Source: Acidobacteriota bacterium (GTDB lineage Bacteria; Acidobacteriota; Blastocatellia; Pyrinomonadales; Pyrinomonadaceae). Taken from it: a stretch of DNA of 35,220 nucleotides. This document shows, in pieces, positions 2,603 through 17,715 of this stretch (within the stretch, counting starts at the first letter, position 1; each line of letters starts with the position of its first letter). The notes beneath the pieces are model-generated. The model saw nothing but the letters and a program-made list of their open reading frames with translations. It was not told where the DNA came from and made no database searches. Location: contig JAIVJG010000007.1 in assembly GCA_020200155.1 (NCBI GenBank), forward strand, positions 1-35,220, written 5' to 3'. Both the position numbers and the translations under genes were made by a program.

Positions 2603-3433
2603 ATGGGCATCAAGAAACTGAGACCGACATCGCCTGCGCGTCGCTACCAGACGTACCTGACGCGCGACGAGCTGACGCCGGGCGCGAAGCCTGAGAGGGC
2701 TTTGCTCGAACCGAAGACGCGCATCTCCGGGCGCAACAACGACGGGCATATCACCGTGCGTCGTCGCGGCGGCGGCCACAAGCGCTTTTACCGGATCATA
2801 GATTTCAAGCGCAACAAGCCGGGCATTCCCGGTCGCGTGACGCAGATTGAGTACGACCCGAACCGCTCGGCGCACATCGCGCTCATCACCTACCTCGACG
2901 GCGAGAAGCGCTACATCATCGCGCCCGTCGGCCTTGAGGTCGGCAAGACCGTGATGAGCGGGCCGGAGGCCGATATCCTGCCGGGGAACGCCCTGCCAAT
3001 CCACAACATCCCGCTCGGCACGCAGATTCACAACATCGAAATGCGTCCCGGCAAGGGCGGGCAAATGGCGAGAAGCGCAGGCTCGTTCGCGCAACTCGTC
3101 GCGAAAGAGGGCGACTACGCGCAACTCCGCATGCCTTCGGGCGAAGTACGGCGCGTGCCCGTCGTCTGCATGGCGACCGTGGGGCAGGTCGGCAACGTCG
3201 AGCACGAGAACGTCTCTTACGGCAAGGCCGGACGCTCGCGCTGGCATGGTTTGCGCCCGAAGGTGCGCGGCGTCGCGATGAACCCCGTAGATCACCCGCA
3301 CGGCGGCGGTGAAGGCAAGACCAGCGGCGGCGGCCATCCCGTCACGCCCTGGGGCCAGCCGACGCGCGGCTACAAAACGCGCAAGAACAAACGCACGCAA
3401 AACATGATCGTGCGCGACAGAAGGAAGAAGTAA
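2603..3433 (+). CDS. rplB: 50S ribosomal protein uL2
   Basis: A 276-residue uL2, needed for subunit association and peptidyl transfer. It begins [20 protein letters not shown] and carries the universally conserved DHPHGGGEG at 230-238, whose histidine is functionally important in the family. The frame is open upstream to 2561 through the right arm of the hairpin, but ATG 2603 gives the family N-terminus. No good Shine-Dalgarno is visible upstream (AAATAAAG). The C-terminus [17 protein letters not shown] is normal. Confidence 0.97.
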
Positions 3434-13561: not shown

Positions 13562-13602
13562 CCGGCGCGATGACGAGTTGTTCCTCGTTCGCCGCGCGCC
13601 GG
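13562..13602. other. Strong GC hairpin between adk and map
   Basis: CCGGCGCG (13562-13569) pairs with CGCGCCGG (13595-13602), and GACGAG pairs with CTCGTT inside. No T-run follows, so it is not an obvious terminator. It may be an mRNA processing or stability structure. Confidence 0.45.
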
Positions 13603-13623
13603 TTGCCACTTCTCACAGCATTT

Positions 13624-14406
13624 ATGATTATCGGGAAGTCGAAAAGGGAGTTGGACAAGATGCGCGCCGCCGGACGTTTGATCGGGCTGGTGCGCGAGGA
13701 GTTGCGCAGGATGGTGCGGCCCGGCGTGACCACGCTCGAACTCGACGCGGCAGCCGAGAAGATGATTCGCGACTCCGGCGCGCTCCCGACCTTCAAGGGC
13801 TATCACGGCTACCCGTTTTCGATCTGCGCGTCCGTCAACGAGCAGGTCGTGCACGGCTTCCCCTCGAAATACGTTTTGAAAGAGGGCGACATCTTTTCCG
13901 TTGACTGCGGCGCGACGCTCGAAGGCTTCGTCGGCGACACCGCGACGACCGTGCCGGTCGGGAAGGTCAGCGAAGACAGACTCAAGCTCATCCGCGTGGC
14001 GGAAGAAAGCCTTGAGCGCGCCATCGCACAGTGCCGGCCCGGCAAACATTTGGGCGACATCGGCTGGGCAGTGCAGGAGCACGCAGAGGCGCACGGCTAT
14101 TCCATCGTGCGCGACTACGTGGGGCATGGCATCGGTCGCAAGATGCACGAAGACCCGCAAATCCCTAATTACGGGAAGCCGGGCACGGGCGTCAGGATCA
14201 AGGCGGGCTACGTTTTCGCCGTCGAGCCGATGATTAACATGGGCACGCATTACACGAAGACGCTCTCCGACGGCTGGACGGTTGTCACTCTGGACGGCAA
14301 GCCCAGCGCGCACGTCGAACATACCATCGCCATTACGGAGGACGGGCCGGAAGTGCTGACGCAGGTGACGGAAAAAGTGCCGGAGGCGGAGGCCGTCAAC
14401 GCCTGA
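13624..14406 (+). CDS. map: Methionine aminopeptidase, type I
   Basis: A 260-residue type I enzyme that removes the initiator methionine. The five metal ligands are visible: D94 (SVDCG), D105 (GDTA), H168 (GHGIG), E201 (VEPM) and E232 (VEHT); H77 (VVHGFP) is the catalytic histidine. ATG 13624 gives the family start MIIGKSKREL. An in-frame ATG at 13570 lies inside the GC hairpin and would add 18 unrelated residues. In most genomes map is followed by infA; here only a remnant follows. Confidence 0.96.
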   Translation: MIIGKSKRELDKMRAAGRLIGLVREELRRMVRPGVTTLELDAAAEKMIRDSGALPTFKGYHGYPFSICASVNEQVVHGFPSKYVLKEGDIFSVDCGATLEGFVGDTATTVPVGKVSEDRLKLIRVAEESLERAIAQCRPGKHLGDIGWAVQEHAEAHGYSIVRDYVGHGIGRKMHEDPQIPNYGKPGTGVRIKAGYVFAVEPMINMGTHYTKTLSDGWTVVTLDGKPSAHVEHTIAITEDGPEVLTQVTEKVPEAEAVNA

Positions 14407-14424: not shown

Positions 14425-14489
14425 TAGTGGGTCAGTTTCAAATTAGAGCACTGATAAATGCTGGCTCAGAATTTCAAACTGACCCACTA
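14425..14489. mobile_element. 65-bp MITE-like palindrome between map and the infA remnant
   Basis: Terminal arms 14425-14444 and 14470-14489 are reverse complements at 19 of 20 positions, beginning TAGTGGGTCAGTTT. The 25-nt centre has smaller GAGC/GCTC pairing. The element is flanked directly by TGCCGCCGCTCC (14413-14424) and TGCCGCCGCTGCTCC (14490-14504), which look like a target duplication with a 3-nt slip. It is AT-richer than the surrounding DNA and does not follow the 7-bp pattern of the other hairpins. No copy elsewhere in the window and no transposase. Confidence 0.55.
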
Positions 14490-14506: not shown

Positions 14507-14535
14507 TTGGAGCATCTATCAGGTTGTGCTATTAT
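14507..14535 (+). promoter_or_regulatory. Sigma-70-type promoter before the infA remnant and rpmJ
   Basis: TTGGAG (14507-14512), a 17-nt spacer and TATTAT (14530-14535) with an extended -10 TG at 14527-14528. It would drive rpmJ-rpsM-rpsK-rpsD-rpoA-rplQ. Confidence 0.6.
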
Positions 14536-14583: not shown

Positions 14584-14662
14584 ATGGCGAAAGAAGAAGC
14601 GATGGTAGAGCTTTCGTCATAACGATTTGAATCGCGGGCGCATTACGTATCGCTACAAATAA
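14584..14662 (+). pseudogene. infA: infA remnant: translation initiation factor IF-1 with core deleted
   Basis: The 5' end reads MAKEEAMVELSS and then stops (TAA 14620-14622). One base further on, the second frame reads DLNRGRITYRYK and ends with TAA (14660-14662). Intact IF-1 (about 72 residues) starts MAKEEA and ends VELSPYDLxRGRITYRYK. The remnant is therefore the two ends joined, with about 45 codons of the OB fold gone and one extra A near 14621 that breaks the frame. The junction falls at a Val-Glu that occurs more than once in intact IF-1, as expected for deletion between short repeats. The position between map and rpmJ is the usual infA site. It cannot encode a working IF-1, which is normally essential, so another copy should exist elsewhere. 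An assembly error is the main alternative. Confidence 0.85.
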
Positions 14663-14886: not shown

Positions 14887-15270
14887 ATGGCTCGTGTAGT
14901 TGGCGTTGATCTTCCGGTCAATAAGCGCGTCGAAATCGGCCTGACGTACATTTACGGCATCGGTCGCTCGCGCTCGAACTCGATTCTGCGAGAGGCGCAG
15001 ATTAGCCCGAACACGCGCGTGCGTGATCTGGACGAGGCTCAGTTGGGGCGCATTCGCTCGGTCATAGAAGGCCAGGGCGATGTCGAGGGCGACCTGCGTA
15101 AACGCGTGCAGATGGACATCAAGCGTTTGATGGACATCGGATGCTATCGCGGCCTGCGCCACCGTCGCGGCCTCCCCGCGCGCGGGCAGCGCACACACAC
15201 TAACGCGCGCACGCGCAAAGGCCCGCGCCGCGCCACCGTCGCGAAGAAGAAAGCGCCGGGCAAGAAGTAA
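14887..15270 (+). CDS. rpsM: 30S ribosomal protein uS13
   Basis: A 127-residue uS13 of the 30S head, forming inter-subunit bridges and touching P-site tRNA with its tail. It begins [20 protein letters not shown], carries [14 protein letters not shown] and the [20 protein letters not shown] signature, and ends in a basic tail. GGAGAGAAGAA lies just upstream of the ATG. Normal length. Confidence 0.97.
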
Positions 15271-15338: not shown

Positions 15339-15743
15339 ATGGCAAAACCAACCACTGGCGGCAAGAAGAAAACCTTTCGTAAGAAAGAGAAGAAGAACAT
15401 CCCGACGGGGATCGTCCACATCGCGGCGTCGTTTAATAACACGATGATCTCGATCACGGACATGAACGGCAACCTGATCGCGCAATCGTCGGCGGGCGCG
15501 CGCGGTTTTCGCGGCTCGCGCAAGGGCACGCCGTTCGCCGCGCAGCAGGCTGCCGGCGAGGCAGCACGTATCGCCAAGGAAGCCGGCATGCAGCAGGCCG
15601 AGGTGCGCGTCAAAGGGCCGGGCGGCGGTCGCGAGTCGGCGATCCGTGCGATCAACAGTTCCGGCATTCGCGTCACCATCATCCGCGACGCCACGCCGAT
15701 TCCGCACAACGGCTGTCGTCCGCCGAAGCGTCGCAGAGTTTAG
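15339..15743 (+). CDS. rpsK: 30S ribosomal protein uS11
   Basis: A 134-residue uS11 of the 30S platform, lining the mRNA exit. It has a basic N-terminus ([18 protein letters not shown]), then [20 protein letters not shown] and the C-terminal signature [20 protein letters not shown]. In many bacteria the Asn in the HNGC motif is isomerised to isoaspartate. CGAGG lies about 5 nt before the start. Confidence 0.97.
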
Positions 15744-15750
15744 CAAGCAG

Positions 15751-15819
15751 GTGATAAGTAATAAGTGATAAGACAGAGCATTGGCTTTTTCTCATCACTC
15801 ATCACTTATCACTCATCAC
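15751..15819. repeat. Heptamer inverted repeat, rpsK-rpsD
   Basis: GTGATAA GTAATAA GTGATAA on the left (15751-15772) pairs with CTCATCACTCATCACTTATC on the right (15790-15819). Same type as 1424-1493. Confidence 0.85.
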
Positions 15820-15916
15820 GTTCTTATGACCTAAAGGATGAAGGGTCGTGCGTGCGCGGCGGCGCGCGGTCTGTAAACTTTTCCGTCTTGTAAATAAGAG
15901 ACTGGAGGCAAAAGTA

Positions 15917-16555
15917 GTGGCTAGGTATCGTGGAGCGGTGTGCCGTCTGTGCCGCCGTGAAGGTGCAAAATTATTCTTGAAGGGCGACCGTTGTTTCAAG
16001 CCCTCGTGCCCGATTGAGAAGCGCGGCACGCAGCCGCCCGGACAGCATGGAAACTCTATGCGTCGCGGCAAGGCGCTGGCTGGCTACGGCCAGCAGTTGC
16101 GCGAGAAGCAGAAGGTCAAGCGAATTTACTTCGTCCTCGAAGGGCAGTTTCGCAACTATTTCGAGCGCGCGGCGCGCATCAAGGGCATCACGGGCGAAAA
16201 CCTTCTGATCCTGCTCGAACGCCGCCTCGACAACACCGTCTACCGCGCGGGCTTTGCCACGTCGCGCCGACAGGCGCGCCAGCTCGTCAATCACGGGCAC
16301 GTCGAAGTCAACGGGCGCAAGGTGGACATCCCCTCGTTTCAGGTCAAGCCGAGCGACATCATTACCATCAAGGAGGCGAGCCGCAAGAACTCACACGTCG
16401 AGGGTGCGTGGCAGACCGCAGGCGGGCGCGGTCGTCCGAGTTGGCTCGCGCCGGCGGATGGAGAGATGAGCGCGCGGGTCGCTTCATTGCCGACGCGCGC
16501 CGACGTTGACCGCTCGATCAACGAGCAACTGATCGTCGAGCTTTACAGCAAGTAA
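15917..16555 (+). CDS. rpsD: 30S ribosomal protein uS4, zinc-binding form
   Basis: A 212-residue uS4. The N-terminal zinc site uses C9, C12, C26 and C31 (CRLC and CFKPSC), and the S4 RNA-binding domain includes [20 protein letters not shown] and [17 protein letters not shown]. The start is GTG 15917, supported by GGAGG (15904-15908) 8 nt upstream. The open frame further upstream to 15848 gives a non-family sequence. uS4 represses the alpha operon in E. coli; the target site cannot be recognised here. Confidence 0.96.
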
Positions 16556-16568
16556 CACGCGCGTGGTG

Positions 16569-16607
16569 CGGCGCGCTCTGCGGTTCTCGTTCGACGAGAC
16601 GGCGGGG
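16569..16607. other. Hairpin between rpsD and rpoA
   Basis: TCTCGT-TCG-ACGAGA (16585-16599) is an exact 6-bp hairpin with a 3-nt loop, inside looser GCGGC/GCCGC pairing. No T-run follows. It could be an mRNA processing or regulatory structure. Confidence 0.4.
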
Positions 16608-16656
16608 CCGCGCTTCACCCCGCCTTGCCCTTTCGGATACAGGTCTTGATAAAACT

Positions 16657-17715
16657 ATGGCTATGGATCAACAAAATCTCTGGACAGGGTTTCAGATGCC
16701 GCGCCGCCTCGCCGTCGAGGGCGACACGCTGACAGAACGCTACGGGCGCTTCTCGGCGCAGCCGTTCGAGCGCGGCTTCGGCACCACCATCGGCAACTCT
16801 CTCAGGCGCGCTCTGCTCTCTTCCATCGAAGGCGCGGCCATCACCGCCGTCAAGATCGAAGGCGTCGAGCACGAGTTCTCAAGCATTCGCGGCGTCGTCG
16901 AGGACGCGACCGACGTAATCCTGAATCTGAAGCAGATTCCGTTCAAGCTGCACGGCGGCGAGGCGAAGACGCTGACGATACACAAGGACGGCGCGGGCGA
17001 AGTCACCTCCGCCGACATCCAAGCGGACGGCGAAGTCGAAGTGCTCGACCCGAATGTCTACATCGCGACTGTCAGCGATGGCGGCTCGCTGACGGTCGAG
17101 ATGCGTCTGCGTCGCGGGCGCGGCTACGTCCCCGCCGAGCGCAACTTCGATGAAGACCTCTCGCTCGGTTACATCCCCGTGGATTCCGTACACACGCCGG
17201 TCAAGAAGGTGAACTTCACGGTCGAGGCGGCGCGGCTCGGTCAGAACACAGAGTTCGACAAGCTGACCATCGAAGTCTGGACGGACGGCTCCGTGAAGCC
17301 GGACGACGCCATCGGTCTCGCCGCGAAGTTGATTAAGGATCACATGGCGATCTTCATCAACTTCGAGGAAGACACGGACGACTTCGCCTACCAGAACATC
17401 GAGCGCCCGCCCTTGCCGCGCAACGACCTGCTCGACCGCTCGGTTGACGAGCTTGAGCTATCGGTGCGCTCCTACAACTGCCTGAAGAACGCCAACATTC
17501 GCACCATCCGCGACCTCGTGCAACGCAGCGAGCGCGAGATGCTGGCGACGAAAAACTTCGGCAAAAAGTCTCTGAACGAGATCAAGGACATCCTGCACGG
17601 GATGGGCCTCGACTTCGGCATGGAGTTCGACGAGCAGGGCAATCCGATTCCCGGCTCCGGCGGCAGGGACGGCGACATCAGCGATTTCGAGGACGACGAG
17701 GAAGAAGAGGAGTAG
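16657..17715 (+). CDS. rpoA: DNA-directed RNA polymerase alpha subunit
   Basis: A 352-residue alpha subunit. The N-terminal dimerisation domain has [20 protein letters not shown]; the C-terminal domain (about 260-325) has [20 protein letters not shown] and [15 protein letters not shown], which contacts UP elements and activators. The C-terminus is extended by an acidic tail ([15 protein letters not shown]). Position between rpsD and rplQ is standard. No strong Shine-Dalgarno is seen. Confidence 0.97.

Follow-up and report, generated by a model that had tools for sequence, protein, structure and literature searches.

infA lies in the spc/alpha ribosomal-protein operon, whose gene order ranks among the most strongly conserved in bacteria, and initiation factor IF-1 is usually treated as the product of a fixed single-copy gene. 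How, then, can a member of the Pyrinomonadaceae have only a fragment of infA at this site? The question is raised by a stretch of 35,220 nucleotides from a soil bacterium of the Acidobacteriota (contig JAIVJG010000007.1; hereafter the window). The genome to which it belongs is a draft of 4.25 Mb in 312 contigs with 92% completeness, and the closest named relatives found are metagenome assemblies of Acidobacteria subgroup 4/Pyrinomonadaceae.

Between the intact map and rpmJ genes, where relatives carry infA, the window contains a relic of 79 bp (Table 1), compared with 222 bp for the intact infA of a sister genome (G010). The relic starts with an ATG at 14584 and terminates with a TAA at 14660–14662, in agreement with the limits given to it in a previous sequence-only reading. 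Its 5' end, ATGGCGAAAGAAGAAGCGAT, is that of the G010 gene, and the first 20 bases, up to codon 7, are identical to the latter; relative to G010 infA, the OB-fold has lost approximately 144 bp and a single A has been inserted. The 3' end is made up of the final infA codons, DLNRGRITYRYK followed by the stop, with a C-terminal match of 12 out of 12 residues, as against no more than 7 out of 12 in 30 block shuffles of the window. Translation in the first frame yields MAKEEAMVELSS and stops after 12 codons, a second frame reads NDLNRGRITYRYK up to a stop, and, with the OB-fold core missing and the frame broken, no frame gives IF-1. Syntenic homology to infA, combined with the inability to encode a full IF-1, confirms that the ancestral infA (infA1) persists at 14584–14662 as a pseudogene. 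The suggestion that the stretch is a deleted and frameshifted infA remnant is thereby borne out.

Table 1. Features of the window around the infA1 relic
Feature	Position	Strand	Remarks
map, methionine aminopeptidase, intact	13570–14406	+	Open reading frame; orthologues at the same position in relatives; true start probably slightly downstream
65-bp inverted repeat, MITE-like	14425–14489		Separates map from the infA promoter, as an insertion; dispersed over the genome in five identical copies, each with TA at its two ends
Promoter-like motif	14507–14535	+	-35 TTGGAG (14507–14512), 17-bp spacer, -10 TATTAT (14530–14535), then GCAGTTTG
infA1 remnant	14584–14662	+	Codons 1–7 joined to approximately codons 56–73, one extra A; untranslatable as IF-1
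rpmJ, ribosomal protein L36, intact, 37 residues	14703–14816	+	Assigned from sequence
rpsM, ribosomal protein S13, intact	14887–15270	+	
rpsK, rpsD, rpoA, intact	15339–17715	+	Expression presumably from the retained promoter

Across the deletion, codon 7 is followed by approximately codon 56. The loss had been attributed to short repeats at a Val-Glu pair, and this proposal stands in part. The Val-Glu at the joint derives from the downstream part of the gene (VLVELSP), and a deletion in one step would have had no more than about 1 base of homology at its break, the two TAGAG-like repeats being a few bases out of register. TAGAG-like words do lie near both ends of the deletion (ATAGAGG at codons 7–9 and GTAGAGC at codons 56–58). 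Furthermore, a genome of a distant genus (G121) has undergone an independent 146-bp deletion with its break within the same repeats (TAGAAG/TAGAGC), and the resulting relic is nearly identical in form to that of the window. The two ends of infA are thus alike, and the part between them is deleted repeatedly, which supports a looser form of the short-repeat idea.

Upstream of the relic the promoter-like motif is retained. A motif with the same spacing was present in all 25 genomes without infA1 and in 33 of the 34 genomes with infA1, its consensus being mostly TTGGNN or TTGAAA, a spacer of 17–18 bp, TANNAT and then GTTTG. This suggests that the promoter region is under selection for the expression of rpmJ and the genes that follow, the infA1 frame being free to decay. 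Copies of the 65-bp MITE-like repeat are always flanked by CC and TG, and G011 has a related element in the corresponding gap (L094). In the AA19 assembly (G010), map is present on two contigs (L101 and L072), in one of them cut by the contig end, possibly as a result of strain mixture.

The map–rpmJ site was surveyed in 119 genomes of the family. It was unreadable in seven of these; among the 112 readable genomes, 87 have an intact infA1 at the site and 25 have no intact copy. The decay ranges from frameshifts only (G028, G029 and G122), through combined retention of 5' and 3' ends around a deletion (the window's genome, G000, and G121) and partial stubs (G036, G125, G008 and G081), to gaps with nothing recognisable in them (e.g. 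G014, G004, G007, G035, G097 and G095). A tree of seven neighbouring proteins (SecY, Adk, Map, S13, S11, S4 and RpoA) from 61 genomes requires 16 infA1 losses if regain is excluded and 14 if weak nodes are resolved toward shared loss, a count that is soft, since the genomes are drafts and the genes behind the tree are linked. That the losses were many also follows from sister pairs with opposite infA1 states, namely G010/G135 (of one genus, the former intact and the latter lost), G012/G036, G119/G125 and G104/G081. infA1 has been lost at least about 14 separate times in the Pyrinomonadaceae, the exact number being soft, and for this family the view that loss at this position is rare does not hold. 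Elsewhere in the class, in other families (L013, L018, L020, L021, L022 and L029), neither map nor rpsM occurs within 1.5 kb of the single infA; in four of these cases (L013, L018, L020 and L029) it comes after a gene resembling MerR/HspR regulators.

A divergent paralogue of IF-1 is encoded elsewhere in the chromosome. One half of the family has it in the form of infA2, the other half in that of infA3, and the two forms group in a single clade (support 0.997) apart from infA1. Searches with an infA2 model gave 146–164 bits for infA2 and approximately 123–136 bits for infA3. An origin of infA2 outside the family was considered and rejected, since nothing outside it in a 297-genome sample of the phylum scored above approximately 123 bits. 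Both forms pass the curated IF-1 equivalog model TIGR00008 (108.4 and 101.5 bits; cut-off 61.15), and solved structures of IF-1 can be aligned with infA2 from one end to the other. The infA2/infA3 frames are open and without stops in 20 infA1-loss genomes; the copy in the window's genome, on contig C99, does not retain an intact frame. infA2 probably supplies the IF-1 function.

The infA2 gene starts with TTG, accompanied by a strong Shine-Dalgarno sequence, in 29 of the 30 loci read (e.g. L033–L051, L056 and L067–L071), and an earlier start is excluded by the fact that several of the open frames comprise just 73 codons. Genes for a DEAD-box helicase, an RRM protein or ribosomal protein S21 (rpsU) lie within approximately 1.5 kb of infA2 in 29 out of 38 loci, but near only a handful of 76 other loci, some of which had been included for their proximity to such genes. 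infA2 may be regulated together with the genes for the RNA helicase, the RNA-binding protein and S21. Several infA1-less genomes (G001, G004, G020, G035, G078 and G079) contain two infA2 copies in differing neighbourhoods, rpsU-linked in one case and helicase- or RRM-linked in the other.

infA2 or infA3 was found in 20 of the 24 loss genomes other than the window's (21 of 25 when its truncated copy is counted) and in 46 of the 87 genomes that keep infA1; Fisher's test gives p values of approximately 0.02 without the truncated copy and 0.005 with it, kinship among the genomes being ignored. The four loss genomes devoid of both forms are drafts with completeness of 67–90%, and neither infA1 nor a paralogue was found in G027, G095 and G109. 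The association fits a scenario in which the paralogue would permit the loss of infA1.

It is thus very likely that a redundant infA1 died and that the infA2/infA3 lineage took over. The second IF-1 lineage carried by the family would have made infA1 redundant, so that the latter could die; in the window it lost approximately 144 bp by deletion close to the TAGAG-like repeats and acquired a frameshift of 1 bp. Its promoter would have been kept because it also serves rpmJ-rpsM-rpsK-rpsD-rpoA, with the consequence that only the infA1 reading frame decays. For the family as a whole, takeover by the paralogue has good support, and to this extent the earlier prediction that a second infA serves the cell holds. 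In the window's own genome the prediction fares less well: a search of the remaining contigs for an intact infA, proposed in the same reading, recovered a single other copy, an infA2 on the minus strand of C99 (4.8 kb; 3018–3209), without codons 1–10 and the ribosome-binding site.

Matches of the C99 gene to infA2 begin at approximately codon 10/11, and the sole remaining start is a GTG at codon 12, from which 62 residues would be translated. In the region 3018–3250 (L032) the truncated gene passes directly into the sequence upstream of an Rv2179c-like exoribonuclease gene, which is divergent; in sister genomes, unlike on C99, a ChaN-like gene lies between rpsU and the exoribonuclease gene. 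The other neighbours on C99 are the expected ones, rpsU and a small gene that has CxxC pairs and no assigned family. That C99 is a random contaminant was considered and is weakened: it carries the only rpsU found in the assembly, its genes are locally ordered as in relatives, and its infA2, in a natural neighbourhood with rpsU, speaks against an unrelated contig. Near the infA2/rpsU cluster of G014 and G020 there is an RRM gene, so that one deletion, of the RRM gene and the infA2 start, would explain the arrangement on C99. Neither the infA2 N-terminus nor another infA was found in the assembly; on the other contigs the lost N-terminus gave three one-mismatch pattern hits, none of which matched the peptide. 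The helicase locus, where sister genomes carry infA2, was also considered, but the helicase orthologue on C266 has no infA2 within 1.5 kb. Given the truncation on C99, the failure to find another infA in the assembly and the helicase locus without infA2, we infer rather than observe the takeover in the window's genome itself. The likeliest explanation is that an intact IF-1 copy is missing from, or misassembled in, this assembly, a truncated but working IF-1 being less likely.

Taken literally, the assembly holds no full-length IF-1, as would be the case if both infA copies were damaged and the organism lived with the 62-residue protein or with none. The C99 copy is, apart from its truncation, 97% identical to intact infA2, without an internal stop and in a natural rpsU neighbourhood, all of which would suit such a reading. 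We nevertheless regard it as improbable: the truncated gene lacks a Shine-Dalgarno sequence and part of the first strand, its joint with the exonuclease gene was found in no other genome examined, the assembly is only 92% complete, and IF-1 is essential in E. coli. Decidedly improbable, too, is the wider proposition that this genome, and perhaps G027, G095 and G109, do without a conventional full-length IF-1, either because the truncated GTG-started infA2 works or because initiation is IF-1-independent.

The sequence-only reading had allowed that the region might be misassembled, i.e. that an intact infA is really present here and the relic reflects misassembly or sequencing error. The genome is indeed in 312 contigs, a 65-bp repeat with five identical copies lies 95 bp upstream of the relic, and the other infA, on C99, has an odd junction as well. 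Yet the same site has decayed in 25 of the 112 readable genomes, which come from several projects and include the near-copy of the deletion in G121; the relic combines its deletion with a further indel; and on its two sides map, the promoter, rpmJ and rpsM are undamaged and arranged as usual. As decay has occurred independently in other genomes, misassembly is rejected as the main cause and is very unlikely to account for the relic. That the relic is instead a short functional element, a leader peptide or regulatory RNA kept for operon expression, is hardly credible, for although the translatable 12-codon leader MAKEEAMVELSS remains with its start, the stretch from the promoter to the rpmJ leader shows no sequence conservation among the loss genomes, varies freely in length and content, and in several of them retains nothing of infA.

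The closest parallel to the death of infA1 and its replacement by infA2/infA3 is the plastid infA of flowering plants, which has been lost repeatedly and replaced by a nuclear copy (PMC4329224). Common to both are many independent losses, frameshifted relics and a second copy present elsewhere beforehand; the plant copy resides in another compartment and needs a transit peptide, whereas here a chromosomal paralogue of free-living bacteria is involved. As for the TTG start, E. coli infC is autoregulated through a non-AUG start. Like infC, infA2 encodes an initiation factor and begins at a conserved codon other than AUG (UUG in the mRNA), although the factor and the codon are different, and infC-like autoregulation of infA2 via the TTG is only a proposal. 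According to Giangrossi et al. (2007), as cited in PMC9947658, infA of E. coli is itself a cold-shock gene, induced from its own P1 promoter. A similar tie of IF-1 to cold-shock RNA metabolism is suggested by the neighbourhood of infA2 (DEAD-box helicase, RRM protein and S21); in E. coli, as the same account has it, cold induction acts on P1 of infA and not on a second gene. A role of infA2 in cold or RNA remodelling is a reasonable guess, no more. Our literature search retrieved no report of such an infA takeover in bacteria, no paper linking infA, IF-1 and Acidobacteria, and no use of the names infA1 and infA2 in the present sense, many subscription papers lying outside its reach.

With at least about 14 deaths of infA1, every stage of decay and a promoter that is kept throughout, the Pyrinomonadaceae would constitute a natural series for the movement of an essential function between loci. 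The absence of infA from its operon is not necessarily an assembly error, and in these bacteria the IF-1 gene may be a paralogue that starts with TTG and has RNA-helicase and RNA-binding-protein genes as its neighbours.
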